IMG/VR virus record: IMGVR_UViG_3300027782_000404
Coordinates: 1-21,882 of that record
Reading direction: 5' to 3' (one strand)
Source: a virus
Length of the DNA: 21,882 nucleotides
Shown here: piece by piece, positions 7,327 through 21,882 of the stretch
How positions within the stretch are numbered: the first letter of the stretch is position 1
Layout of the letters: each line of letters opens with the position of its first letter
The notes under the pieces: model-generated
Told to the model about the DNA's origin: nothing
What the model saw: the letters and a program-made list of their open reading frames with translations, nothing else
Databases searched by the model: none
Program-made: the position numbers and the translations under genes

Positions 7327-9228
7327 ATGGTAGTAGCATCTCCCCTCAACATAGGAAAGTCTACAAATCCACTAAGATCTGTTGGTGGGGCAATTTCTGG
7401 TGCAAATAGAACAATCAAAAATATCGGTGGGATTTTATTTCGTAGAACTAAATTTAAAAGAGAATCAATTGCAACTTCAAAAACCTTAACAAATAAAAGA
7501 ATTGAAAATGAGAATAGGGCAGATAGAGAAAGTGAATTAGAAGCACCAAATCTTACAAAAACGCGAGCTGGAGCATTAAATTTAGCAAATAATTCTGGAG
7601 GTAGTTTTTTAGATAGAATTATTGGATTCCTAGGATATACTACTGCTGGATGGATTTTGAATAATCTTCCAACTTGGATTGGATTGGGTAAAGAATTTAT
7701 TGCTAGAATACAAAAAGCAGGGCAAATTATTAGTTCTGTTGCTAATGATGCAATTAATATAGTCGGTGGATTTGGTAATGTATTGGGAGCAGTTGGGAAA
7801 AATATTTTATCATTTGATATACTTGATAGTTCAAAGCGTCTACAAAATGCAGTAGGAGATTTGAATGCATCATTTGAAGATATGGGTAAACAATTTAATG
7901 ATGGATTCAAATTAGTTTCGACTCCATTAACTACCAAATCAGGAGAAGGAAGTTATAGTGGAGCAAATGTTCCATCTACAGGAACACCTTCCACTAATGA
8001 AGGTGCTTATCCAGAAACTCCGATGCCTTCTGGTGGCCAATTGTATGAGTCTAAAGGTGGTCAAAAAATAAAAAGATCAGAATTTGGAAGAGGATTTAAA
8101 GTAAAAGATAATCTTGGATCTGGAAAAAGTGCTTTTGGTCATACCGGACAAGATGTTCCTATGGAGACGGGAACACCATTATCACTAGTTGCTACAGGTG
8201 TAGTTGTTGAGGCATCAACTGGGTATAATGGCGGATATGGAAATTTTGTTGTTATAAAACTTGATGATGGTCGATATATCAAAATCAATCACCTATCTAA
8301 AATTTTAGTTAAACAGGGTGATAAAGTTGGAGCTGGGTCTGGTGCAAATGGTGGGGTTAGAGTTATAGGTTTGGTTGGATCATCTGGTCTTTCAACTGGA
8401 CCTCACATGCACCTTGATGTTGGGACTGGATATAATAGGAGTTCTGCAGCTATTACTGGATTAATGAATCCAGCAGAATTTATATTAAATGGGGGAATTG
8501 TTAGAGGTGGAGATGTTAAATCAACTGGTAAAATAAGTCAAACATCATCCGGACCTAAACCTCCAGTTTCTCAACCACGAAATGCATTAATTGGAAAAGC
8601 AGCACCTTCTGGTGGAACATTATCAACTGATCAGTTAGTTTCTCTTGCAAAGCAAGCTGGATTTAATCAGAAAAATGCTGTGATAGCTGCAGCAGTTGCA
8701 AAAGCAGAGAGTGGAGGAGGATCTTCAAAAGTTAATGATAATCGAAGGACAGGTGATTTATCTTATGGATTGTGGCAAATTAATATGATTGATAAGTTAG
8801 GACCTGAACGATTAAAACAATTTGGAATTTCTTCATATGAACAATTAAAAGATCCATTAACCAATGCTAAAGCAGCATTTATTTTATCTGGCGGATCTAA
8901 TTTTAGTCCATGGTCTGTTTATAAATCTGGTAAATATAAACAATTTCTACCAGAGGCACAAAAAGCAGCAGGCATCTCACCATCACAATATTCATCAGCA
9001 CAAGTTGCAGTATCCTCTCCACAACCATCATCCAACACACCACAACAACTAACACCAGAAAGAACGGGGCAGGATATACTTGTCTTTGATACTGGTGCTG
9101 GTCAATCTCCACCCCCTGCAGCGCCTTCTGGTGGCGGTGGTGGAGGAGCACCTGCTGCTCCCGATAATTTTACTATGGTAAATAACTTTATTAAGAAACA
9201 ACTTCTTTTAGATTTGGTGTATCTATAA
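7327..9228 (+). CDS. Virion-associated protein with M23 peptidase and lysozyme-like domains (633 aa)
   Basis: Residues ~1-200 resemble the preceding protein: a basic N-terminus, then hydrophobic helices ('IIGFLGYTTAGWILNNLPTW'). A Gly/Pro/Ser linker leads to a peptidase M23 (LytM-type) domain at about 255-385, with HxxxD (His272, Asp276), an 'NHLSKI' motif, 'KQGDKVGAGS' and HxH (His360, His362), i.e. the zinc ligands and catalytic histidine. A second linker is followed by a lysozyme/soluble-transglycosylase-like domain at about 440-545 with 'AKAESGGGSS' (Glu461 as candidate catalytic acid), 'SYGLWQIN' and 'AAFILSGGSNFSPW'. The end has a Gly-rich linker and 'PDNF' plus 19 residues. It would cut peptide stems and glycan strands of the host wall at infection, taking over the role of the T4 gp5 lysozyme. 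The stop overlaps the gp27 start by one base. Confidence 0.8.
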   Translation: MVVASPLNIGKSTNPLRSVGGAISGANRTIKNIGGILFRRTKFKRESIATSKTLTNKRIENENRADRESELEAPNLTKTRAGALNLANNSGGSFLDRIIGFLGYTTAGWILNNLPTWIGLGKEFIARIQKAGQIISSVANDAINIVGGFGNVLGAVGKNILSFDILDSSKRLQNAVGDLNASFEDMGKQFNDGFKLVSTPLTTKSGEGSYSGANVPSTGTPSTNEGAYPETPMPSGGQLYESKGGQKIKRSEFGRGFKVKDNLGSGKSAFGHTGQDVPMETGTPLSLVATGVVVEASTGYNGGYGNFVVIKLDDGRYIKINHLSKILVKQGDKVGAGSGANGGVRVIGLVGSSGLSTGPHMHLDVGTGYNRSSAAITGLMNPAEFILNGGIVRGGDVKSTGKISQTSSGPKPPVSQPRNALIGKAAPSGGTLSTDQLVSLAKQAGFNQKNAVIAAAVAKAESGGGSSKVNDNRRTGDLSYGLWQINMIDKLGPERLKQFGISSYEQLKDPLTNAKAAFILSGGSNFSPWSVYKSGKYKQFLPEAQKAAGISPSQYSSAQVAVSSPQPSSNTPQQLTPERTGQDILVFDTGAGQSPPPAAPSGGGGGGAPAAPDNFTMVNNFIKKQLLLDLVYL

Positions 9229-10568
9229 TGTCAATTAAAAGGTCTATATTTGAAGAATTATTATTAGAATCAAACGATCAGAGTAGAACGATTGATGTTT
9301 CTGGCGGAGCAATATCGATTGATTATTATGAAGATATTTTTTCTCCGATGATTACTGCAACAGTTAAAGTTGTGAATACTGGCAGTTCAATTGCTCCGGA
9401 AGATAATACGGATGGAGAGAAGCAATCCATTTATAATGGTCTTCCCCTAAGAGGTGGTGAAAGAATTTCGATGAAGATTTCTGGAAATTCTGCAACCAAT
9501 AAAGGATTGGATTTTTCAAAGAACGAAAAAGATTATTTTTATGTTTCTAGTATTACTGATGTAATTTCGGAAACTCAACAAGAAAGTTTTACTCTCCATT
9601 TAGTATCAAGAGAAGCAATTACAAATCTAACAACAAGAGTTGCAAAGAAATATCCAACATCATTAACAATTGATGAATCAGTTCGTAAAATTTTGACTGA
9701 CTATTTGAAGACAGACAAAATTGGAACTCTTGAGAAGTCTTCAAACAAATATGGATTTATTGGTAATTTAAGAAAACCATTCACAGTTTTAATTTGGTTG
9801 GCATCAAAGGCAGTTCCAGCAAGTTCTGGAAATGGAACTGCTGGATTTGTTTTCTATCAAACTCAGGAAGGATTTCAGTTTAGATCAATTGATGGATTAA
9901 TTCAACAAAAACCAAAAGCAACTTATACTTATAGTCAGGCAACGGTTAATTATGATGAAAGTGGAAAAACTGAGAATGACTTTAAAATTCTAAATTATAT
10001 CACAGAGAGAAATCAAAATCTGATTGAAAAACTTCAATTGGGAACTTATTCAAGTCATAGAATGTTCTTCAATCCATTAGATTTTTCATTCTCAAAATAT
10101 GAAGAAGGTATTTTTAAACTTGGAGATTATGTAGGCAAGGCAAAAAATCTTGGAAGTCAATTAAAACTTCCAAAAATTTCAAGTACTTCAAATCAAACTT
10201 TAGGTGATACGCCAACCAGAATTCTTACCGCAATTCTTGATGTTGGTACGATGGAAAAGGATGCATCAACGGATATAAATTCTGATCCAAAATTATATCA
10301 ATCTCAAGCATTAATGAGATATAATATTCTTTTTACTCAAAGTTTGAGTATTGTCGTTCCTTGCAATACAAATCTAAGAGCAGGTGATATTATTGAGTGT
10401 CAATTCCCAAGAATTTCTCAATCAGATGCCAAAGAATATGACAAGGAGCAAAGTGGACTATATATGATTAAGGAGTTATGTCATCATTTCGATTCTGAAA
10501 ATTCTTATACATCGATGAAATTAGTAAGAGATACATTTGGAATTAACGTGGAGGAAAAACAGGGATAA
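9228..10568 (+). CDS. 27: gp27-like baseplate hub protein
   Basis: This 446-aa protein has the order and features of the tail hub family (T4 gp27, 391 aa; relatives in type VI secretion VgrG N-termini). Beta-rich segments 'FSPMITATVKVVNTGSSI', 'YFYVSSITDVISETQQESF' and 'FTLHLVSREAITNLT' form the first half. The middle has 'SGNGTAGFVFYQTQEGFQFR' (T4 has 'VGSDKFVFVWQDIMGVNM'). The last part, with 'SIVVPCNTNLRAGDIIECQF' and 'GLYMIKELCHHFDSENSYT', corresponds to T4 'NLTPGVKIIFND' and '[20 protein letters not shown]'. In T4 a gp27 trimer forms the torus holding the gp5 spike and joins the tube. Its place immediately before gp5 supports the call. The gene abuts gp5 directly, stop then ATG without spacing. 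Confidence 0.8.
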   Translation: MSIKRSIFEELLLESNDQSRTIDVSGGAISIDYYEDIFSPMITATVKVVNTGSSIAPEDNTDGEKQSIYNGLPLRGGERISMKISGNSATNKGLDFSKNEKDYFYVSSITDVISETQQESFTLHLVSREAITNLTTRVAKKYPTSLTIDESVRKILTDYLKTDKIGTLEKSSNKYGFIGNLRKPFTVLIWLASKAVPASSGNGTAGFVFYQTQEGFQFRSIDGLIQQKPKATYTYSQATVNYDESGKTENDFKILNYITERNQNLIEKLQLGTYSSHRMFFNPLDFSFSKYEEGIFKLGDYVGKAKNLGSQLKLPKISSTSNQTLGDTPTRILTAILDVGTMEKDASTDINSDPKLYQSQALMRYNILFTQSLSIVVPCNTNLRAGDIIECQFPRISQSDAKEYDKEQSGLYMIKELCHHFDSENSYTSMKLVRDTFGINVEEKQG

Positions 10569-12848
10569 ATGATCGATCAATCATCACTTAAAACTAATTT
10601 TATTGGAAGAGATGGATTCCGCTGGTGGGTTGGACAAATTCCACCACTATCTTCTATGGGAAAGCAAGTAGAAGGTGGTGGTTGGGGAAACCGATTTAAA
10701 GTCAGAATTATTGGATATCATCCTTATAGTGCAGCAGAACTTCCTGATGAAGATTTACCCTGGGCACAGTGCTTAATTCCAACCACAGCAGGAAGTGGGG
10801 CAGCAAATTGTGCAACTGGTGTTCAATTACAACCTAGTGATATAGTTCTTGGATTCTTTTTGGATGGAGATAATGCACAAATTCCTGTAATTCTTGCCAC
10901 ATTTGGTAGAAGTAATTCAGTTCCATCAACAGATTATTTGGGGCCATTTGTTCCTTTTACAGGATACTCTGATAAGATTCAAAAGAATGGTGGATTGGCA
11001 TCTAATGAATCTAGTGAAGTAAAGAAAACATCAAATCCATCTCCAAGAGATGTTTCTCCCGAACAAGCAAAACAGATTTCTCCTGATGAAAAATCAACAA
11101 GTGACTCTATTGGTTCAACTGTAATTCTTGCAAATACGATTAATAATACAAAAGTCGCAGGAATTAAAAATGAAGTTAGTAATTTACTTAAAAAAATCAA
11201 AAGATTTTTGAACAAAGCAAAAAATGTTGCTCAAAAAATTAAACAAGAAATTAAAAAATCTGTAGATAAGATTGTATCGATTGCAAATGATTTTGTTGGC
11301 AGCTCATTTAATTTTTTATATAAGCAATTAGAAAAATTATTGAAGAAAGGTTTAGATTTCTTATATAAACAAGTTTTTTCCACTATTTTAGCAGCAACAG
11401 CGAATCCTGCAGCAGCACATCTTGCTGGTGTTGCTGCTCAAACTGCTATGGTTAAACCTGTATCAATTTTAGAAAAAGCAGTTTCTTGTGTTGCTGGGGC
11501 AGTCATAAGTGGATTGAAAAGTGTAGTCTCTGGATTACTTAATTCTGTCGTTGACAATATATCGAGATTTGTAGGTTGTGCTGCAGAGCAGTTTACTGGA
11601 TCATTACTAAACAGTATTATCGATAAAATTGAAAGTGCTATTTCCGGACCTATTGCGGGTGTTGAAAAACTCTTACAATTCTTTTCTGATTTTAGTGTTG
11701 GGGGAGTAATAAGAAGCGTAGTTGATGGAATTAAATCAGTTGGATCTGCTTTTGATTGTAATCAGGATAAGAGTAGTTTCCAAGGTTTGGTAAATGAATG
11801 GGTAGTTGGTTCAGGTCCAAAGTTTAGTGGTGCTGATCCTTTTCAAAATATTCTAAAAGCAATTAATATACAAAATAGCACAAAACCAATTACTGAATTT
11901 AATTTAGCACCAACAGATAGTATTGTTCTTAATAATCTATTGTCTACAGTAAAAATTGCTTCTAACGTTGGTATTAACGATACTACAATTAATCTACAAT
12001 CTCTGGATAATATTTCTTCTGATGGACTACTAAGTTCTGATTATGAAATTATGAAGATTAATTCGGTAAATCAATCTACAAATCAAATTGTAGTTCAGAG
12101 GGCATATAGTGGAATTACAACTACCTATACTAGTGGATATGATTTGAATGTAATTGATAATAGAGTAGAACCACGAAATACTACAACTACTATAAAACAA
12201 TCTCCTACAAATTTATTTAAAAACTCTTTAGGTAATTGCTTTACTGGTGTTCCAACAAATTGTAGTGCCCCAACAATTAATATTTTTGGTGGAGGAAGTT
12301 CTGGATCTGGAGCAACTGCAATTCCTTTACTGGGATCTATCGTTGGAGATACTGCAAGTATTATAGGAGTTAAAGTTACAAATGGTGGTTCTGGATATGA
12401 TTACCCACCATTTGTAGAAATTGTTGATAATTGTGGTCAGGGATATGGTGCTGTTGCAAGAGCATTAATTAATGATGCTGGGCAAGTTGAATCAATCTAT
12501 ATTGTTTCTGAAGGTGAAAATTATCCTATAGAAAACTTTATAGATATAGAAAATATGGAACGTGTAGGAGGTATTTTTGAGTATTCAGTCTCTGATGTTG
12601 TTGTTGACTTTGGTGGATCTGGATATGAGAATGGAGATACGGTAGTTGACAATCTTGGAAATACCTATTCAACGCAAGTTGTAAATGGATCAATCTATCA
12701 GGTTATACCTCTAAATAATGTAGTTCAATCTGCTCCTGTTCTGACTGTTCAAACAAAAACTGGGTCTGGAGCAGTTCTTCGCCCATTACTTGCAAGTCCA
12801 AACTTTACCGGCGAAGTTCAACAAAGTATCGATTGCCCCACAAAATAA
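10569..12848 (+). CDS. 5: gp5-like baseplate hub protein, OB-fold, no lysozyme domain
   Basis: This 759-aa protein has an N-terminal OB-fold of gp5/VgrG type (residues ~12-118): 'FRWWVGQIPPL', 'NRFKVRIIGYHPY', 'DLPWAQCLIPTT', 'GFFLDGDNAQIPVILATFGR'. T4 gp5 then has a lysozyme and a beta-helix; here neither follows. Instead there is a charged helical region at ~195-270 rich in Lys, an Ala/Gly/Val-rich part at ~275-400, and a beta-rich C-terminal third with three 'GGSGY' motifs (near residues 607, 682 and a degenerate one between). That repeat type is common in phage baseplate and fibre proteins. The protein is therefore a hub plug that probably holds the separately encoded spike that follows. 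It has several Cys pairs, unusual among its neighbours. Adjacent genes abut without spacing. Confidence 0.75.
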   Translation: MIDQSSLKTNFIGRDGFRWWVGQIPPLSSMGKQVEGGGWGNRFKVRIIGYHPYSAAELPDEDLPWAQCLIPTTAGSGAANCATGVQLQPSDIVLGFFLDGDNAQIPVILATFGRSNSVPSTDYLGPFVPFTGYSDKIQKNGGLASNESSEVKKTSNPSPRDVSPEQAKQISPDEKSTSDSIGSTVILANTINNTKVAGIKNEVSNLLKKIKRFLNKAKNVAQKIKQEIKKSVDKIVSIANDFVGSSFNFLYKQLEKLLKKGLDFLYKQVFSTILAATANPAAAHLAGVAAQTAMVKPVSILEKAVSCVAGAVISGLKSVVSGLLNSVVDNISRFVGCAAEQFTGSLLNSIIDKIESAISGPIAGVEKLLQFFSDFSVGGVIRSVVDGIKSVGSAFDCNQDKSSFQGLVNEWVVGSGPKFSGADPFQNILKAINIQNSTKPITEFNLAPTDSIVLNNLLSTVKIASNVGINDTTINLQSLDNISSDGLLSSDYEIMKINSVNQSTNQIVVQRAYSGITTTYTSGYDLNVIDNRVEPRNTTTTIKQSPTNLFKNSLGNCFTGVPTNCSAPTINIFGGGSSGSGATAIPLLGSIVGDTASIIGVKVTNGGSGYDYPPFVEIVDNCGQGYGAVARALINDAGQVESIYIVSEGENYPIENFIDIENMERVGGIFEYSVSDVVVDFGGSGYENGDTVVDNLGNTYSTQVVNGSIYQVIPLNNVVQSAPVLTVQTKTGSGAVLRPLLASPNFTGEVQQSIDCPTK

Positions 12849-13418
12849 ATGGCAGAAAGACCGAATCAAAATATCTACAAAAGACAATTAATTAGTTTCA
12901 ATCCTAATTTTAGAATTGATACTGCCAATCCTCAAATGGGATTAAGTGGTAGTGATGTTTATAAGATGTATGGAGTTACTGATGATGGAAATCAGTCATC
13001 CATTTCATTAAGTAGCAGTGGAAAGGTTTCTTTTTTAAATGATAGAACGATTGAAATTGTTGCAGGAGAAAAAAACGAAGGAAAGAGTGTTGATATAGTT
13101 ATTATTGGTAAAAATGGTGATGTTTGCATCACGGCAGAGCGAACTGGAATGGTTCGTATCAAAGCAAATACTATTATGCTTGATGCTGATGAAGATATTC
13201 ACTTAAAAGCGGGAAGAAGTATTAATATGAATGCAGGATCTGGTAGAATTTTACAGCAAGCAAATAAAATTGATGTGAGTGCAACAACAGGAACTCTGAT
13301 GCAAGCTATGGGGCAAAGTTTTGTTAGTAGTGTATTTTCTGGAAGTTTTGTTGGACCTGATGTTCTTCAAGCTTCGATTGGTGGAATCTTAAAGGCAGCA
13401 GTAGATACGGTACTCTAA
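12849..13418 (+). CDS. gp5 C-terminal-like beta-helical spike protein
   Basis: This 189-aa protein has the repeat pattern of the triple-stranded beta-helix that ends T4 gp5 and VgrG. From residue ~78 to ~145, short strands alternate at about eight-residue spacing: 'VDIVIIGKNGDV', 'CITAERTGMVRIKA', 'NTIMLDADEDIHLKA', 'GRSINMNAGSGRI'. The N-terminal 40 residues (Asn/Pro/Arg-rich) are less ordered and could attach to the gp5-like hub; the C-terminal 40 are small and hydrophobic. As a trimer it would form the membrane-piercing needle. Its ATG directly follows the gp5 stop and its stop is one base from the next start, so the stoichiometry with gp5 is probably maintained by coupled translation. Confidence 0.75.
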   Translation: MAERPNQNIYKRQLISFNPNFRIDTANPQMGLSGSDVYKMYGVTDDGNQSSISLSSSGKVSFLNDRTIEIVAGEKNEGKSVDIVIIGKNGDVCITAERTGMVRIKANTIMLDADEDIHLKAGRSINMNAGSGRILQQANKIDVSATTGTLMQAMGQSFVSSVFSGSFVGPDVLQASIGGILKAAVDTVL

Positions 13419-13419
13419 A

Positions 13420-16400
13420 ATGGCAGATATTACAGTAACAGGTAATGAGGCTTATTTTAACGAAGATGCCAAGTTCTTTAAGGATGTTTATATTTACGGG
13501 AACTTATATGGCGATTTCATAGGTAAAAGTAATGGTATTTTTGAAGGAGATATATCTGTTGCTGGAAATGCAACATTTAAAAGTGATGTTGATATCGTAG
13601 GAATACTTACTGTTCGTAAAAGATTGGAGGTTGGCGTTGGTGGAACTATATTAACAACATCAAGTGGAAGTATTGGTATAGGAACAACAAATCCACTACA
13701 AAATTTAAAATTACAGATAAATGATGTAGGAACTTCTGTAGTAGTGGTTACTGGAATAGGGTCTGTGGGAATTGGAAGTACAAATCCAGAACAAAAACTT
13801 GATGTTTCTGGAAGCGTAAAAATAACCAAAGACATATATGATTCTTTGAACAGTTCTGGAAATATTGGAGGATTTTTAACAAAGGATGTACAAGGAATTA
13901 AATGGACTGATTTTACACCATCATTCACCGAGGGTATTTTTGTTTATAATGAAGGATTATTAGTTGGCGTTAGTTCTTTTAGGGGTCTTAATCTCATAGC
14001 TGGTGGAATCGCTACTAGTGGAATTAGAAACTCTAAGGTAGGATTAAATGTTGGTATAGTAACTGATTCAATACAAGCATTTCCAAATCCCTCAAATCCC
14101 AGTATTGCAGATGTTTATACTTTTGATGTTTGGGAATTAAGTGGTAGTAATATCTACAGAAATTCTAGAGTAGGAATTAATAATGCAAATCCAAACTATG
14201 ACCTTGACGTAACTGGAACAGCATATATAAGTCAAACTTTAGAGGTTGCTGGTTCTACATTACTTAATGATATATTAAATGTTGGCGGTGCTACATCTCT
14301 TAGTAATACATTATATGTTGGCGCCGCTGCTACGATTTTTGGTGCCACAGTTCTTCAAGATACTTTAGGTGTTACTGGTGCTACAATACTTATCAGTACT
14401 TTAGAGGTTAATGACCATACAACACTCAAAAATAGATTAAATGTTGGTGGTGCTACTACAATTGGTGGTCCTACAGTTCTCTTTAATACATTAAATGTCG
14501 GTAGTGCCACTACACTTAACAGCACTTTAAGAGTTGTCGAAGGAACGAATCTTGATGGTACATTATCTGTTGGTGCCGCTACTACAATTAATAGTACTTT
14601 GAGGGTTACTGCCGGAACAAATCTTAATAGCACATTAAATGTTGGTGGTGCTACGAGTATTTCTAGTACATTAAGAGTTGATGGGGCAACATCTCTCAAT
14701 TCAACTCTTCAAGTTGGGATTGGTGGAACAGTTATTACCACAACAGGTATTGGATCTGTCGGTATTGGAACTAATGCTCCGATTAAAGATATTGATTTGG
14801 CAAAAAGCGTTTTGCTTAGAAAAGGACTTTATGATAGTAATCGTAATGTAGGATATGATACTAATTTTTATCAAACTCCAAGATCAGTATTAACTCAGGT
14901 TGGAGTTGGAACAACTGGTGAGATTATTGGTGGTAGATTTTTTGATGCTGCGAATATAATTCGTTTGAATCTTGATTTCATTGCAGCAGAAGCTATTGGA
15001 TTTCTTACAAGTACGAGTTATAAGAGTCCTGCATTTGTTGTTCCTGGTGTTGGTGGAGTATCTACATGTAGAAATGATATTAAGAAAATTTTAAAGGCAA
15101 TTACTCTTGATATTACTAAGGGAGGGAACTCACAATCTGTTGGTGCTGGTTTATCTTATTATAATGGACCTTCACTAATTCATATTACTGGTAATGATAT
15201 AAATGGATATTCAATTAAAGATGCTACGATTGTTGCAATCACAACAGCGGCACAATTGGCAAGGTATGTAATTAATAATGTTACGCTACCAATATCCTAT
15301 CAAAGTGGTGTAAGTAGTATTCGTCAAGTAAGAGATTTAACTTTACAAGATGATGCTGCTGTTGGTTTTAATACAAGTTTAAGTGGATGCTCAAATGTAG
15401 TGTCAGCAATTACTGTTTGTGCTGGCATTGTAACTACAATTATTGGTGGTGGTCCATCAGCATCACCAAATATTACTTATCCAGATGGTAAGGTAATTTG
15501 GGCACCGGCAGGAGCAGACTCTAGAAATTTAATTTGGGTTTCTAAGTATGGTAATGATGATAATGGTGGTAAAACAGAAGGTGATGCCAAACTCACAATT
15601 GCTGCTGCTTGTGCAATTGCTGAACCTGGAGATACTGTTATGATTCGCTCTGGAGTATATTATGAAAATAATCCAATTGGATTAAGAACAGATGTATCCG
15701 TAAGTGGGCAAGATTTAAGACTTGTTACTGTTGTTCCCAAGAACTTAGGTAAAGATGTTTTCCATGTAAGAAGAGGATGTCTAATTGAAAACATGAACTT
15801 TACTTGTGATACTGGGCAATCCAATCCTGGGGGAGGAGCATTAGCATTTCCACCAATAACATCAGATATAGTGTCCGGAAAATCTTATGGCGCTGTATCT
15901 GGATATCTTGCTCCCGGACCTGCAACAGAAGGTCCAAGTGGAAGGTGGAGATCACCATATGTAAGAAACTGTACTAATTTCATGCCATTAAGTATTGGTA
16001 TGAAGATTGATGGAGACCATGCAGTTTCCTCCACAATTGGTGCAGACCTTAAGTGTATGGTTTGTGACTCATTTACACAATATAATGAGGCAGGTATTGG
16101 AGTTTCAATTACAAATAATGGATATGCACAGTTAGTTTCCATTTTTACAATCAACTGTGATAAGGCAATCTATGTCGATACTGGTGGACAGTGTGACCTT
16201 ACAAACTCTAACTCATCATTTGGCAATTATGGTCTTTATGCAGTTGGTTTAGGTAGAACAGAATTTACTGCAAAAGTAAATACAACGACAACTGCAGAAG
16301 CAGGTACGATCATCTTCAAGAATGTTAGTGATGGTTCTCAAGTTAGGCGACCTTATGATGGTCAAGCATTATGGTTTAAAATTAATCTTTCAAATTATAC

Positions 16401-17106
16401 AACTGGACAAACTGGAATTATTACTGCACCATTGCAAAGATTGCAAAGTATTGGAATAGGTACTACTGGTGTTTCTGGATATAGTCAGTCTGCTCCTCCA
16501 GATATTACAATTTATGATGCCAACACAAATAGTACAGACCCATTAGGACCAGAAGGAATTGTTGCAGAATTATCTCCAACAATTAGTGATGGTGGGGCAA
16601 TTACTGCCGTTGATTTGGTTAATAGTGGGAGAAATTATCTTTCATCACAAAATATGAAAGTTAGAATTAATGGTGCTCCAACAAATGATTTGACTGCGAT
16701 TATGGAGCCAATTTATTATACAGTTTCTGAAGCAACATCTCCGACTGTTTCTGGTATCACAACAGTAACATTAAATGAATTTGTTCCATATCTTGTTTAT
16801 GCTGAAGATGATATTGAAATGAGAAGAATTAGTAGAATTCTTACAAGTGGTCATTCATTTGAATATATTGGTACTGGCACAGACATAAATACTTCAACTC
16901 CTTTGAAGGGTGCTGTGCCCATCAAAGAAAATGAAATTGTTGCTTTAGATGGAGCTCAGATACCATATACCAGTACTGACCAAAAAGGCAACTTTAATAT
17001 TGGTGAAGGTATTCGAGTAGATCAAACAACTGCAACAATTCGTGGAAGAGATTTTAGTAAAGCAATACAGGCAGAAGTTACACCTTTAATTCTTGCGTTG
17101 AGATAA
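13420..17106 (+). CDS. Large beta-helical baseplate/tail-fibre protein with pectate-lyase-like domain (1228 aa)
   Basis: The N-terminus (1-75) has short beta repeats ('YIYGNLYGDFIG', 'GNATFKSDVDIVGILTV'). Motif 'GSIGIGTTNP' starts at residue 83 and 'GSVGIGSTNPEQKLDVSG' follows at ~112. Residues ~270-435 are a run of roughly 12-13-residue 'TLNVGGATTLNS' repeats, probably a trimeric beta shaft. From about 705 ('LIWVSKYGNDDNGG', 'AEPGDTVMIRSGVYYENNPI') to about 985 comes a right-handed beta-helix of pectate-lyase type; I cannot see a clear catalytic set, so it may only be structural or bind polysaccharide. The C-terminal ~100 residues ('SGHSFEYIGTG', 'YTSTDQKGNFNIGEGIRVDQ', 'AEVTPLILALR') are a module I recall from many cyanophage structural proteins. 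Related large proteins have been annotated VrlC-like in cyanophages; this link is from memory. Likely a peripheral baseplate or short-fibre protein. Confidence 0.7.
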   Translation: MADITVTGNEAYFNEDAKFFKDVYIYGNLYGDFIGKSNGIFEGDISVAGNATFKSDVDIVGILTVRKRLEVGVGGTILTTSSGSIGIGTTNPLQNLKLQINDVGTSVVVVTGIGSVGIGSTNPEQKLDVSGSVKITKDIYDSLNSSGNIGGFLTKDVQGIKWTDFTPSFTEGIFVYNEGLLVGVSSFRGLNLIAGGIATSGIRNSKVGLNVGIVTDSIQAFPNPSNPSIADVYTFDVWELSGSNIYRNSRVGINNANPNYDLDVTGTAYISQTLEVAGSTLLNDILNVGGATSLSNTLYVGAAATIFGATVLQDTLGVTGATILISTLEVNDHTTLKNRLNVGGATTIGGPTVLFNTLNVGSATTLNSTLRVVEGTNLDGTLSVGAATTINSTLRVTAGTNLNSTLNVGGATSISSTLRVDGATSLNSTLQVGIGGTVITTTGIGSVGIGTNAPIKDIDLAKSVLLRKGLYDSNRNVGYDTNFYQTPRSVLTQVGVGTTGEIIGGRFFDAANIIRLNLDFIAAEAIGFLTSTSYKSPAFVVPGVGGVSTCRNDIKKILKAITLDITKGGNSQSVGAGLSYYNGPSLIHITGNDINGYSIKDATIVAITTAAQLARYVINNVTLPISYQSGVSSIRQVRDLTLQDDAAVGFNTSLSGCSNVVSAITVCAGIVTTIIGGGPSASPNITYPDGKVIWAPAGADSRNLIWVSKYGNDDNGGKTEGDAKLTIAAACAIAEPGDTVMIRSGVYYENNPIGLRTDVSVSGQDLRLVTVVPKNLGKDVFHVRRGCLIENMNFTCDTGQSNPGGGALAFPPITSDIVSGKSYGAVSGYLAPGPATEGPSGRWRSPYVRNCTNFMPLSIGMKIDGDHAVSSTIGADLKCMVCDSFTQYNEAGIGVSITNNGYAQLVSIFTINCDKAIYVDTGGQCDLTNSNSSFGNYGLYAVGLGRTEFTAKVNTTTTAEAGTIIFKNVSDGSQVRRPYDGQALWFKINLSNYTTGQTGIITAPLQRLQSIGIGTTGVSGYSQSAPPDITIYDANTNSTDPLGPEGIVAELSPTISDGGAITAVDLVNSGRNYLSSQNMKVRINGAPTNDLTAIMEPIYYTVSEATSPTVSGITTVTLNEFVPYLVYAEDDIEMRRISRILTSGHSFEYIGTGTDINTSTPLKGAVPIKENEIVALDGAQIPYTSTDQKGNFNIGEGIRVDQTTATIRGRDFSKAIQAEVTPLILALR
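14230..14727 (+). repeat. Degenerate coding repeat, 'TLNVGGATTL' type
   Basis: About a dozen imperfect copies of a 12-13-residue unit with consensus T-L-x-V-x-x-A-T-x-L/I follow one another in the 1228-aa protein. At DNA level 'aatgttggtggtgctac' and 'acattaaatgt' recur with variation. The pattern fits a beta-helical or beta-spiral shaft. Confidence 0.7.
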
Positions 17107-17107
17107 G

Positions 17108-17773
17108 ATGGCAGTCGCACCAGTCAATAAATTTATAACTCTTGCAGTTCCAGTTGCACCAGGAGAGCAAACAGTCTACTCCACACCAACTGGAGTTTCT
17201 GCAATTATTCTTTATGCACAAGTAGCAAATGTTTCTACTGGAACAACTTATCCAACAGTTACTTTTACTCATCGAAGAAAATCAAATAGAACAGGAAATA
17301 TTAGAAATATTAGAGTTATAAAAGGAACAGAAGTTCCTCCGAATGATAATTTGATTATTATTGATGGTAGACTAGTCTTAGAAAGAACTGCACTTATTTC
17401 CGATTCGATTGTAATTGAAGGAACTCAATCGGGAATTGTTACAGTTACAAATTGTTTATATAATAATAATACTGGAGTGACCACAGTTACGACATTAACT
17501 CCTCACAATTTCTCCTCTGGTAGTGAAATTACCATGAGTGGATTGGCGTTCACTTGTTCACCTGGAGCGAGTGGAATTACAACAACAATTTATCCATCCC
17601 CACAATCATCCTTCACAGTAACTTCAATTACTGGAAGTGTGGGGACATCACTTACATTTACTACAAATACTGGAGCAATTGCTGGAATTGCTCATACTTA
17701 TGTAAGTGGTGGTAAGGTTGGACCGCTTCAAATGGAATTTATTTGCAGTATTCTGGAAAATAGCACAGTATAA
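17108..17773 (+). CDS. Structural protein with inserted beta-domain (221 aa)
   Basis: No named family was recognised. Residues 1-115 read as a beta-rich domain ('NKFITLAVPVAPGEQTVYST', 'VSAIILYAQVANVSTGTTYP', 'NLIIIDGRLVLERTALISDS'). Residues ~118-205 appear to be a separate module ('TTLTPHNFSSGSEITMSGLA', 'FTCSPGASGITTTIYP', 'GIAHTYVSGGKVG') of a type I recall in many marine phage fibre and structural proteins. The last 15 residues, 'LQMEFICSILENSTV', look like the final strand of the first domain, so the module may be an insertion into the parent fold. The gene starts 2 nt after the preceding stop and ends 2 nt before the fibre gene, so it probably connects or stabilises these two large proteins. 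Confidence 0.6.
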   Translation: MAVAPVNKFITLAVPVAPGEQTVYSTPTGVSAIILYAQVANVSTGTTYPTVTFTHRRKSNRTGNIRNIRVIKGTEVPPNDNLIIIDGRLVLERTALISDSIVIEGTQSGIVTVTNCLYNNNTGVTTVTTLTPHNFSSGSEITMSGLAFTCSPGASGITTTIYPSPQSSFTVTSITGSVGTSLTFTTNTGAIAGIAHTYVSGGKVGPLQMEFICSILENSTV

Positions 17774-17775
17774 TA

Positions 17776-20700
17776 ATGGCAAAATACGGTAGTGGTAGTA
17801 AAAAGGTAACTCCTAATGTTGGTCTACGCACCAGTAGATATCAATATTTGACACTTGAGGATGCTGAACCTAATTTGGGATTTACTAGTGAGAAAGTATT
17901 GCCAATTAAAGATAATTATTATCAATTAGTATCTTTTGATGGGGGAACAGTATATGATAGATATTGGCAAGTAGCTCCTGCAGGAATTATTACTGGTATT
18001 TCCGTATTTGATGAAGGTGGTATTGTAGGTACAGGAAATAGTATTAACAAACTTGATTTTCGTGGAAATATTATTACTGCTACTGCAAATGATTTTGGAA
18101 CAATTTCAACAATTACGGTTGCACCACCAGGAAGTGATACGCAACTTATCTATAATTCTGGTGGAAATTTTGCAGCATCAGCAAATCTAAGATTCTCTTC
18201 AAATATACTTTCTGTTACTGGACTTGGAAGTTTTTCTCAGGGTTCTTATAATCAAAATGTAAGAATTGGTGTTGCAAGTAATAATGTAATTGATACAACA
18301 AGTGGTAATTTAGTTCTTGATGCAAATAGTGGTATTACTTCAATTAAGAGCGTTCTACTGGCAGGAATCACAACATTTAGTGGATCTAATTCATCAAATT
18401 TAGTTACACTTTCTCAGACTGGAACTGGTAATGCTTTATTTGCAAATGGAACTGTAATTAGTGGTCTGGGATCGATTGGAGTTGGGACAACAGTTCCAAC
18501 ACAAGAACTTGATGTAAATGGAGATGTCCGTATAAGAGGAACAATTTATGATTATAACAACCAACCAGGAAATAATAGCGATATTCTCATAAAGAATAGT
18601 GTTGGTGGGTTGGAGTGGGTAAATCAATCCACAGTTGAAACTGGTGCTGGTGGTACATATACAAATATTCAGTATCACACCTATGCTGGAAAACTGGGCG
18701 GTGCTCCCAATTTTGTATATGAATCTAATACTAGTAGGGTCGGTATAGGAACTACAATTCCAACAAGTACACTTACAATCTTTGGTTCTTTTGCAACAGG
18801 TTTAACTGCAAATACACTTTCTGTCACAAACGATTCTGATGGAATTGTAAGGCTAGGTGCTGCTATTATTAGTACTCCAACAGGAACTGGAAGACTTAAT
18901 ATTCAAGATAGACAGGGAACTTATTTATCCCTATACGTTTCAACTGGATTAGTAGGAAGATTGAATGCTGTTGGATCTGCTGGATCGGATCTTGCATTAG
19001 AAGTTGGTGGAACTGAAAGATTGAGAATACTTGGAGCAAGTGGCAATATTGGTATAGCAACTACAAGTCCAGCAGCAAAACTTCATGTTGTTGGTGATGC
19101 ACAAGTCGATGGTAATATAAGAGTTGGTATTTCTACTACATCAAACTATATTGCTTTTAGGGGAACTTATGGTGATGATTCATCACTTTATACACATACC
19201 TTTATTGGTGAAAGAATATATGATTATAGTGGAGGTGGTGAAAGATCGGAACTTTTATTATTTAAAGGAAATGATTATGCTGATGGTTCTTCTGGTCCAG
19301 ACAGAATTCGTTTAGCAGCAGGAGAATTTAGATTTGATACTATTAATACTTATATTGCTGGTACTTTTGAGCAAGTAGCAACAAGTGCAAATATCACCAA
19401 TAAGATGATTCTTACTGGTGATGGAAATCTTGGTATAGGAACCACAGTCCCAATATCAAAACTTGATGTTAATGGTAATGTTAGAGTCGTTGGAGTTCTT
19501 ACTGCAACAAGGGGAGCAAGATTTAATAATATAGATGTTGGAATTTCGGATGCTAATACAATCAGCACTCCTACTGGAAATTTAACTCTCGATTCTTTTG
19601 CAGGAACAACAGTTATTAAGGATATTCTTTCTGTAGATGATACATCAGCAACAACAAGTACAACTGATGGGGCACTTGTTGTTAAAGGTGGCGTCGGTAT
19701 TGCAGGAAGTCTTAATATTGGTGGGCATATTGCAGTTGGCAGTACTTTTGGAGTTACTGGAACTTCATTTTTAAAGCAATCAATTATATCTGGTATTGCA
19801 TCCTTTACAAATACAACCGAATCAACAAATAAAGATACTGGATCAGTTATTGTTGAAGGTGGAGTTGGAATTGAAAAGAATTTAAATGTTGGTGGCGCAT
19901 CATCGATTAGTGGTATTACAACATTCGGATCTAATGTCCTTCCTTTCAATAATTCAACTCAAAATATTGGTAGTGAATCTCAAAAATGGAGTAATGTTTG
20001 GGCAACTACATTTAATGGAAAATTCCTAGGAAATGCAGACACCGCTGGTTATGCAACCACGGCAGGTATGTCAACCAATCTTATTGGAACTGTAGTTGGT
20101 TCAATTCCTTATCAATCTGGAAATAATCAGACTTCATTTACTCAAGTTGGAACTGCCAAATCTTTACTACAATCAAATGGTACAAGTGCTCCTACATGGA
20201 TTAATCCTGGTACTTTGAATGTTGCATACGCATCTAGTGCAGGCATATCAACTAATCTTGCAGGCGGTAGTCCTGGAGTTGTTCCTTATCAAAATAATAC
20301 GGGAATAACCTCATTTACTCAAGTTGGAACTGCTAATTCATTATTACAATCTAATGGTACAAATGCTCCTACATGGATAGATCCAGGAACATTAAAAGTT
20401 GCATATGCATCATCCGCAGGTATTTCAACAAATCTTGCGGGTATTGGTATTACTGGAGCAATTCCTTATCAATCTGGAAATAATCAAACTTCATTCACTC
20501 AAGTTGGAACTGCTGGGTCATTATTGCAATCTAATGGTTTGAATGCACCTACGTGGGTAGAACCATCTGGATTGTCGGTCAAATTTGCTGGTTATGCAAC
20601 TACCGCAGGTATAGCAACCAATCTTAAAGGTATTTCTGGAAATATTGGTCAAGTACCTTGGCAATCTGGAATTAGTACTACTACATTTACTACTGGTGGA

Positions 20701-21882
20701 TCTACCGGACAATTGTTACAATGGGGTGGTGCTACTGGACCTACTTGGGTTAGTCCATTAGGATTATTTGTTCAAAATGCTGGATATGCGACTACAGCAG
20801 GTATTGCTACTTACGCTACTAATGCTGGTGTAGCAACTTATGCAACGAGAGCTGGTTTATCAACTAATCTTGTAAGTATTGCTGCTACTGGTCAAGTACC
20901 TTATCAATCCGCAGACAATACAACTTTATTCACTACTGGTGGAATAGGTGGTAATTTATTGCAGTATAATGGTCTAGGTGGTCCTATTTGGACTTCACCA
21001 CAAGGTCTAACAATTGGATATGCTCTTACAGCAGGCATATCAACGTATGCAACTAAAGCAGGTATTGCTACTTATGCTGATAATGCTGGCATAGCAACCA
21101 ATCTTAAAGGTATTTCTGGAAATATTGGTCAAGTACCTTGGCAATCTGGAATTAGTACTACTTCATTTACTACTAGTGGTATTAGTGGATCTAGTTTATT
21201 GCAATATGGTGGAATCACGGGCCCCACATGGGTCGCACCAACAAATCTTACGGTCCAAAATGCTGGATATGCCGATAATGCTGGTATAGCAACTCATCTT
21301 AAATTAGGTGCTCAGGGAAGTATTCCTTATCAAACTTCTAGTAGTCAAACTACATTTTTAGCAGCTACTGGATCAAGTGGTTTTGTATTAACATATGATA
21401 CAACATCTAACGCACCTAAATGGGTCGATCCACTAAATTTTAAGGTTAAATCTGCTGACTATGCCGATAATGCTGGTATAGCAACTAATCTTAAATTAGG
21501 TGCTCAGGGAAGTATTCCTTATCAAACTTCTAGTAGTCAAACTACATTTTTAGCAGCTACTGGATCAAGTGGTTTTGTATTAACATATAATACAAGTCTT
21601 AGTCGACCTGAATGGATTAATCCACTAAATTTTAAGGTTAAATCTGCTGACTATGCCGATAATGCTGGTATATCAACTAACATTAAAGGTGGTTCTGGCG
21701 GGTCTATTCCATATCAAACTTCTAGTAGTCAAACTACATTTTTAGCAGCTACTGGATCAAGTGGTTTTGTATTAACATATGATACAAGTCTTGGTCAACC
21801 TAAATGGGTCGATCCACTAAATTTTAAGGTTAAATCTACTGACTATGCCGATAATGCTGGTATATCAACTAACATTAAAGGT
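17776..21882 (+). CDS. Long repeat-built tail fibre protein (3' end outside window)
   Basis: The frame is open from the ATG at 17776 to the last base, 1369 codons with no stop, so the C-terminal tip is missing. The N-terminal ~80 residues ('MAKYGSGSKKVTPNVGL', 'YYQLVSFDGGTVYDRYW') probably attach to the baseplate. The shaft has 'GSIGVGTTVPTQELDVNG' at residue 232, 'NIGIATTSPAAKLHVVG' and 'NLGIGTTVPISKLDVNG', then two 'GALVVKGGVGIAGSLNIGG'-type modules and 'NIGSESQKWSNVWATTFNGK'. From about residue 760 it is made of 59-64-residue repeats with the pattern 'IPYQSGNNQTSFTQVGTA', 'LLQSNGTNAPTWIDP', 'AGISTNL'. This architecture is typical of cyanophage receptor-binding fibres. The closing repeats are nearly identical at DNA level. 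Host-receptor contact is inferred from the architecture. Confidence 0.8.
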   Translation, partial: MAKYGSGSKKVTPNVGLRTSRYQYLTLEDAEPNLGFTSEKVLPIKDNYYQLVSFDGGTVYDRYWQVAPAGIITGISVFDEGGIVGTGNSINKLDFRGNIITATANDFGTISTITVAPPGSDTQLIYNSGGNFAASANLRFSSNILSVTGLGSFSQGSYNQNVRIGVASNNVIDTTSGNLVLDANSGITSIKSVLLAGITTFSGSNSSNLVTLSQTGTGNALFANGTVISGLGSIGVGTTVPTQELDVNGDVRIRGTIYDYNNQPGNNSDILIKNSVGGLEWVNQSTVETGAGGTYTNIQYHTYAGKLGGAPNFVYESNTSRVGIGTTIPTSTLTIFGSFATGLTANTLSVTNDSDGIVRLGAAIISTPTGTGRLNIQDRQGTYLSLYVSTGLVGRLNAVGSAGSDLALEVGGTERLRILGASGNIGIATTSPAAKLHVVGDAQVDGNIRVGISTTSNYIAFRGTYGDDSSLYTHTFIGERIYDYSGGGERSELLLFKGNDYADGSSGPDRIRLAAGEFRFDTINTYIAGTFEQVATSANITNKMILTGDGNLGIGTTVPISKLDVNGNVRVVGVLTATRGARFNNIDVGISDANTISTPTGNLTLDSFAGTTVIKDILSVDDTSATTSTTDGALVVKGGVGIAGSLNIGGHIAVGSTFGVTGTSFLKQSIISGIASFTNTTESTNKDTGSVIVEGGVGIEKNLNVGGASSISGITTFGSNVLPFNNSTQNIGSESQKWSNVWATTFNGKFLGNADTAGYATTAGMSTNLIGTVVGSIPYQSGNNQTSFTQVGTAKSLLQSNGTSAPTWINPGTLNVAYASSAGISTNLAGGSPGVVPYQNNTGITSFTQVGTANSLLQSNGTNAPTWIDPGTLKVAYASSAGISTNLAGIGITGAIPYQSGNNQTSFTQVGTAGSLLQSNGLNAPTWVEPSGLSVKFAGYATTAGIATNLKGISGNIGQVPWQSGISTTTFTTGGSTGQLLQWGGATGPTWVSPLGLFVQNAGYATTAGIATYATNAGVATYATRAGLSTNLVSIAATGQVPYQSADNTTLFTTGGIGGNLLQYNGLGGPIWTSPQGLTIGYALTAGISTYATKAGIATYADNAGIATNLKGISGNIGQVPWQSGISTTSFTTSGISGSSLLQYGGITGPTWVAPTNLTVQNAGYADNAGIATHLKLGAQGSIPYQTSSSQTTFLAATGSSGFVLTYDTTSNAPKWVDPLNFKVKSADYADNAGIATNLKLGAQGSIPYQTSSSQTTFLAATGSSGFVLTYNTSLSRPEWINPLNFKVKSADYADNAGISTNIKGGSGGSIPYQTSSSQTTFLAATGSSGFVLTYDTSLGQPKWVDPLNFKVKSTDYADNAGISTNIKG
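20611..20682 (+). repeat. Exact 72-bp direct repeat, copy 1
   Basis: These 72 bases recur without a mismatch at 21091-21162, 480 bp downstream, and encode 'IATNLKGISGNIGQVPWQSG' and the next few residues. The flanking units differ, so this copy was probably exchanged or duplicated recently. Confidence 0.85.
20785..20865 (+). repeat. Three 27-bp (9-aa) subrepeats, YATTAGIAT type
   Basis: Three consecutive nine-residue units read YATTAGIAT, YATNAGVAT and YATRAGLST. They extend one fibre repeat beyond the usual length. Confidence 0.75.
21019..21099 (+). repeat. Three 27-bp (9-aa) subrepeats, second cluster
   Basis: Units YALTAGIST, YATKAGIAT and YADNAGIAT run head to tail, like the cluster at 20785-20865 but with different codons and residues at variable positions. 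Confidence 0.75.
21091..21162 (+). repeat. Exact 72-bp direct repeat, copy 2
   Basis: This copy is identical to 20611-20682. It begins at the last codons of a 9-aa subrepeat cluster and ends inside the 'SGIST' segment. Confidence 0.85.
21271..21882 (+). repeat. 192-bp tandem repeat array (three full units, fourth begun)
   Basis: Units start at GCCGATAATGC at 21271, 21463, 21655 and 21847, a constant 192-bp (64-codon) period. The central part of each unit (from CAAACTTCTAGTAG to TTAACATA) and the end (CCACTAAATTTTAAGGTTAAA) are identical in the three copies. Differences cluster in two places: just after 'AGI.TN' and at the 'YDTTSNAPKWVD' position. The array continues past the window edge. Confidence 0.9.

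Follow-up and report, generated by a model that had tools for sequence, protein, structure and literature searches.

The tail-fibre gene at the end of an uncultured virus record carries a tandem array of nine repeat units, the last three of which are near-identical. We analyzed the complete IMG/VR record IMGVR_UViG_3300027782_000404, hereafter the window (21,882 bases), which covers only part of a genome. In our judgement the array is probably the growing part of a modular tail-fibre shaft in a T4-like cyanophage, in which units multiply and exchange segments by recombination. Each unit (mostly 59-66 aa) would comprise a small beta-domain and a linker, as suggested by a low-confidence structural model. 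Exact tracts shared between units (up to 101 bp) would allow expansion, contraction and exchange by unequal homologous recombination or slippage, and none of these changes would shift the reading frame, the unit length being a multiple of three bases. A divergent unit type would have multiplied recently in this lineage to yield unit 7 onwards, up to unit 10 or beyond; two places within the unit would have received segments copied from other units, hence the clustered differences. The outcome would be fibres that differ in length and mosaic composition. From sequence comparison we infer recombination as the mechanism, the donor units and the role in the shaft; we also infer that unit number may affect receptor reach, host range or adsorption.

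The record and its tail-fibre array

The window is part of a T4-like cyanomyovirus (Kyanoviridae). It encodes a gp32-type SSB (gp32-like protein, PF08804), T4-like baseplate genes including a baseplate hub/lysozyme (PHROG), and a row of tail-fibre genes; no RNA or tRNA genes were found in the window. The best named DNA match for positions 9228-17200 was Synechococcus phage S-SRM01 (Kyanoviridae), at 73.9% over 35% of the query. The nine repeats of the last fibre ORF (Table 1) are 59-81 residues long, follow the pattern IPYQ...W and lie in a frame that is open through all of them, and are in-frame tandem copies of a domain in a tail-fibre gene. The start of type A units was placed 12 residues before the IPYQ motif. 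The record ends inside the array, so the nine units of the window are a lower bound.

Table 1. Features of the array-bearing fibre gene (positions in the window)
Feature	Position	Strand	Remarks
Tail-fibre ORF	17776..21882	+	1369 aa, open at contig end; nine repeats
Units 1-3 (type A, 59-64 aa)	20068..20616	+	71-72% identical to each other
Units 4-6 (type B)	20617..21270	+	9-residue spacer repeats in units 4 and 5; nearest L017 units 4-6 (86-92%)
Unit 4 tract	20611..20682	+	Exact copy in unit 6 (21091-21162); sister's unit 4 differs there
Unit 7	21271..21462	+	192 bp (64 aa), register of the earlier note
Unit 8	21463..21654	+	92.7% identical to unit 7
Unit 9	21655..21846	+	Identity 87.0% to unit 7, 88.5% to unit 8
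Start of further unit	21847..21882	+	36 bp, then contig end
Variable window 1, codons 7-19	21289..21327 (unit 7), 21481-21519 (unit 8), 21673-21711 (unit 9)	+	
Constant block, codons 20-42	21328..21396 (unit 7), copies from 21520 and 21712	+	
Variable window 2, codons 43-53 around Trp	21397..21429 (unit 7), 21589-21621, 21781-21813	+	

Tandem Repeats Finder (TRF) identified a 192-bp period with 3.2 copies at 21261-21879, and the register starting at 21271, in frame with the ORF, holds three complete units followed by the first 36 bp of another. Pairwise comparison revealed 14 base differences between units 7 and 8, 25 between units 7 and 9 and 22 between units 8 and 9, which confirms the near-identical 192-bp units (87-93% identity) with two clusters of differences described in the earlier note. 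The changed codons are 7-19 and 43-53, plus codon 62, and not a single base differs among the three units in codons 20-42. When differences were placed at random on a ring, clustering as strong as that observed was never obtained in 20,000 trials for units 7/8 and 7/9 (P = 0.0006 for 8/9), by a statistic, the two longest clean gaps, that was picked after inspection of the data. Exact tracts of 101, 76 and 69 bp are shared among units 7-9. The upstream units reach at most 77% identity to any other window unit, compared with 87-93% within units 7-9, and the claim that they have diverged far more is therefore correct. For five of the six upstream units the best paralogue was 71-77% identical; unit 5 had no unit of the window among its four best matches, the fourth of which was 69.4% identical.

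Family searches matched other parts of the fibre or gave weak matches. No Pfam family matched the fibre ORF of the window at E values up to 1, and no Pfam model matched the repeat in the window and four sister fibres. Among PHROGs, the fibre of the window matched phrog_9563 alone, outside the array. In the sister arrays, phrog_6968 was matched weakly in three fibres (best 7.6e-9) and phrog_14978 in two (best 2.9e-8); both families are of unknown function, and the repeat may already belong there. The adjoining fibre gene (13420-17106) has a tandem repeat of its own, of 36 bp (12 aa), with 2.0 copies by TRF in the window and 6.8, 8.9, 9.4 and 13.1 copies in sisters (L005 1333-1670, L017 4594-4914, L018 4627-4871 and L020 4426-4896). 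These counts differ between the window and its sisters, so this second fibre also seems variable in repeat number.

Array history and unit number in related fibres

A scan with the fibre N-terminus found six loci. Four sisters were 93-97% identical (L017, L018, L020, and L019, which lies on the same contig as L005) and have complete fibre ORFs of 1627-2141 aa. The two remaining loci, at 53% identity, had no unit in their fibre ORFs, and in one of them (L021) the ORF is cut by the contig end. Counting with a unit HMM revealed 12 units in L017, 13 in L005, 21 in L020 and none in L018, set against 9 in the cut fibre of the window. Peptidase_S74 (PF13884) forms the C-terminus in L005, L017 and L020 (E 1e-15 to 1e-16). 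The L018 ORF gave no Pfam match, S74 included, and the window itself stops before its C-terminus. In L018 (8001-13094) the N-terminus is 96% identical and other modules are present in the fibre, the C-terminal part of which has probably been exchanged. Between the N-terminus and the array of the window, at 18762-19513, DNA similarity to L017 stops and then returns, which suggests a swapped fibre segment.

Units 1, 2, 4, 5 and 6 of the window were nearest to the same-numbered units of L017 (85-93%, DNA), and unit 3 had L017 units 1 and 3 at nearly the same distance (73.6 and 73.2%). The orthology of unit 6 is not reciprocal, since L017 unit 6 is closer to its own unit 7 than to unit 6 of the window. 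Units 7-9 were nearest each other, and their next best match among the 55 units of four fibres was at 65%. The nearest unit came from the same array for 11 of 13 units in L005 and for all 21 in L020 (two ties). With units 7-9, this pattern points to expansion and homogenisation of arrays within each lineage. Synonymous difference was 0.06-0.13 among units 7-9, 0.18-0.31 for the five same-numbered pairs of window and L017 units and 0.124 for the fibre N-terminus. An IMG/VR scan with two of units 7-9 returned relatives of no more than 52% protein identity, a result from which near kin of the record may be left out. The earlier proposal of a recent expansion or homogenisation is supported by units 7-9 being the most alike and by the L017 counterparts of the five upstream units; judged on sequence, a recent, lineage-specific expansion of units 7-9 would fit best.

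We then used the gene directly upstream of the fibre (17108-17770) as a marker; 174 relatives were found, and the best 80 were kept. The longest ORF following the marker was taken automatically as the fibre ORF, giving 81 ORFs with the window, from records that are not independent, several being one phage from several samples. Fifty-three of the 81 ORFs were complete (558-2141 aa), 13 of these with units. At least one unit was present in 17 of the 81 records, with counts of 21, 13, 12, at least 9 (the window), 5, 5, 4, 4, 4, 2, 2 and 1 (six records); the remaining 64 had none, and 24 of those are cut by a contig end. Collagen-like repeats occupy the same slot in other phages, as judged by a Pfam Collagen match in L022 and by motif count alone in L054-L057 and L117-L122.

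Copy number differs between close relatives, the count of the window itself being a lower bound. Two records with markers 97.4% identical (L075 and L081) have 5 and 4 units, with further differences too, and L023 and L026 have 5 units each. Among 29 contig pairs with a 100% identical marker, the fibres were identical in 22, agreed to the end of the shorter in 5 and differed in 2. One differing pair, L071 and L074, differs by 3 residues. The other, L101 and L104, shares about 18.4 kb with 0 substitutions and has a 189-bp length difference (three 63-bp motifs) in the fibre, located in another fibre repeat (21-aa motif; fibre aa 342-405 of L101). A 151-bp exact repeat at this site means that the shorter assembly might be a collapse, and the pair is a possible natural length variant or a possible assembly collapse. 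Both identical-marker pairs in which the present repeat occurs (L081/L127 and L059/L061) have equal unit numbers. Since identical-marker pairs mostly lack a fibre difference, unit number does not change at every turn. The suggestion that unit number varies fibre length is supported by the sister counts of 12, 13, 21 and 0, and by whole-repeat differences in some close relatives.

The near-identical units at the contig end might instead have been produced or mis-joined by a short-read assembler. The record does stop inside the array, and its last 100 bp contain a 44-bp exact repeat, a level of repetition equalled by 22% of interior 100-base pieces of the last 3 kb. Contig ends are also crowded on this side of the marker in the 80 loci: per 1.5 kb there were 11, 12 and 10 ends downstream compared with 0, 3 and 1 upstream, or 33 versus 4 within 4.5 kb, about 8-fold. 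We nevertheless consider an artefact improbable, because the units differ from each other by 14-25 bases within one open frame, which is more than an assembler should invent, and because three sister contigs cross the same gene with like arrays, a stop codon and an S74 end. The least certain part is the last 36 bp alone. The simplest reading of the window's end is that assembly stopped there in the ordinary way, leaving the real unit number hidden. Contig ends cut 27 of the 80 fibre ORFs. Among 28 cut fibres, the window included, 15 had an exact repeat of at least 25 bp (last 100 bp against the preceding 3 kb) but in only 8 did the end exceed 95% of the interior pieces of that stretch in repetition; repeats thus explain some breaks, and not clearly all. 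Three contigs of 224-258 kb (L094-L096) have the same end point in the fibre. Because assemblies of this phage group frequently break off within or close to the fibre gene, short-read viromes may under-report variation in fibre length.

Origin of the clustered differences

A growing array of recombining units would account for the two variable windows as segments copied from other units. The earlier note had instead suggested that they could be exposed loops, and a corresponding explanation is diversifying selection on two such loops, with duplication followed by point mutation of receptor-facing residues while the rest of the unit stays under purifying selection. In its favour, pN/pS was close to 1 over whole units 7-9 (0.08/0.06, 0.14/0.13 and 0.12/0.12), whereas same-numbered window and L017 units gave far lower values (0.01/0.25 to 0.10/0.25). 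Raised values were, however, also found in other recent paralogue pairs (L017 1/2, L017 6/7 and L020 16/17). Synonymous changes are restricted to the same two places: between units 7 and 9 they affected 5.5 of the 19 synonymous sites that lie in codons 5-19 and 42-52, and none of the 26 outside (Fisher P = 0.003 with 5.5 rounded to 6, 0.0095 with 5; limits drawn after inspection). Selection on amino acids alone would leave silent changes spread over the whole unit, and their confinement to the variable windows goes against it. Measured by the N-terminus synonymous yardstick (0.124), the clean blocks, again picked after inspection, were only mildly surprising (P = 0.03).

Variability across the family is not raised at these places. 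In 46 units of three sisters, mean entropy was 1.36 bits at the positions that vary in units 7-9 and 1.30 bits at the others (P = 0.74). By region it was 0.90 bits in variable window 1, 1.13 in variable window 2 and 1.37 and 1.91 in the constant blocks, and of the 15 positions that vary most across the family, 12 sit in blocks that are constant in units 7-9. Loop hypervariability as a property of the family is not borne out by these entropies. With silent changes confined to the variable windows and family entropy not raised there, the claim of hypervariable loops found no support at the sequence level, and the variable windows read as mosaic patches. We regard loop selection as unlikely overall; a pN/pS near 1 leaves room for some selection on the fibre protein.

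The predicted structure is compatible with exposure of the two places. An AlphaFold monomer model of units 7-9 (34-row alignment, pLDDT 67, pTM 0.30) was of low confidence, and the fibre protein probably forms a trimer, which makes a monomer model weak evidence. Each unit was modelled as four short strands (pLDDT about 66-88) with a linker around or below 50. Variable window 1 was mostly linker up to the first strand, and variable window 2 covered the turn between strands 3 and 4 plus strand 4; the two may accordingly be surface-exposed as linker and hairpin turn, at low confidence, a placement that counts in favour of loop selection. Sequence searches for solved-structure relatives (E up to 1) gave none, as did Foldseek at E 0.001, and VIA-align gave 0 of 44 aligned chains at Z 2; given the weak query model, these structure-search negatives say little. 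BFVD returned 5 matches at E 0.001 with TM-scores below 0.3, four without an informative name and the fifth annotated as a lambda Stf side-tail-fibre repeat.

Short variable windows between constant blocks of a tail protein also resemble the product of a diversity-generating retroelement, which would write the variable windows from a template. This reading is scarcely credible here. Adenines of the template unit account for only 3-8 of the 14-25 changes per direction, in units of which unit 7 is 32% A, and 14 of 30 variable columns have no A. In addition, the constant block occurs in the three units alone and has no minus-strand copy in the record, itself a partial genome. Changes are not confined to adenines, and the base pattern rules against a retroelement target protein.

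Possible traces of exchange between units were found in the window and are consistent with recombination within the array. In unit 9, 32 of the 51 bases of the patch in variable window 1 match L017 11700-11731, the start of unit 10, at 31 of 32 positions, and a further stretch of 32 bases agrees with an L005 unit at 30 positions. This is only suggestive of a donor further down the array, and a family-wide motif would fit too. For variable window 2, no donor was found among the compared loci. Units 4 and 6 share an exact tract of 66 bp inside unit strings, or 72 bp read directly from the sequence. The first third of unit 4 has unit-6 alleles that are absent from the sister's unit 4 (site-pattern runs test, 0 of 20,000), and the tract is a probable conversion tract from unit 6. 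It points to recombination between units, like the patches of the variable windows. The shared-tract scan added the next unit's 60 bases to each unit, which made values of exactly 60 bp an artefact, and larger values alone were used. A candidate conversion between L017 units 1 and 2 was rejected; despite a 117-bp exact tract, it fell short of significance in the runs test (P = 0.26). More broadly, the fibre slot behind this baseplate gene could, in cyanophages, be a standing, recombination-driven generator of length and mosaic variants, with natural populations polymorphic in unit number, arrays concerted within lineages and fibre length itself selected, a view we hold only tentatively and with some doubt.

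Comparison with known fibre duplications

Among cyanophages, Synechococcus phages S-B05 and S-B43 have 2 recognisable units each, which belong to the same family and form short arrays in another gene context. The tail fibre-like proteins of S-B05, S-B43, RN05-S and RB11-B matched the array region at 38-45% identity, likewise with short arrays. The P-SSM2 tail fibre-like protein lies downstream of the same baseplate region; it is 40% identical at the N-terminus and, at E 1e-5, does not match the array. Among the open-licence papers matched, no title or opening of an abstract concerned this repeat.

Tetart and colleagues reportedly described, in 1996, duplications of a T4 tail-fibre adhesin domain that expanded host range. 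The duplicated adhesin is presumably gp37. When the two systems are set side by side by description, both involve a small fibre domain duplicated in a T4-like phage; the duplication in T4 is in the adhesin, whereas here it is probably in the shaft. The T4 fibre duplications are cited in both PMC6365445 and PMC2248197.

The Enterococcus phage EfV12-phi1 acquired tail-fibre tandem duplications in 4 of 4 coevolving replicates and in none of the phage controls, according to PMC6365445. As in that myovirus, whose duplications arose in coevolution with the host, the window has in-frame tandem copies of variable number in a tail-fibre gene. In contrast to its 1.8-kb copies, observed in the laboratory, the units here are 0.19 kb, occur in uncultured cyanophages and are deduced from comparison. 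Xanthomonas phages OP1, Xp10 and Xop411 are described in PMC2248197 as differing by duplicated fibre domains tied to host range. Their small fibre domains are, like ours, duplicated differently among related phages; theirs are three domains near the N-terminus, whereas here up to 21 units, all from one domain family, lie between the N-terminus and a C-terminal chaperone. For cyanophage evolution, PMC6224464 reports mutations in tail-fibre and baseplate genes.

Duplication of fibre domains is an established kind of change, documented before in laboratory evolution and in a small number of isolates. The array of the window is a natural member of this class with a different domain, and adds a phylogenetically ordered case in which copy number ranges from 0 to 21 units among fibres with 93-97% identical N-termini.
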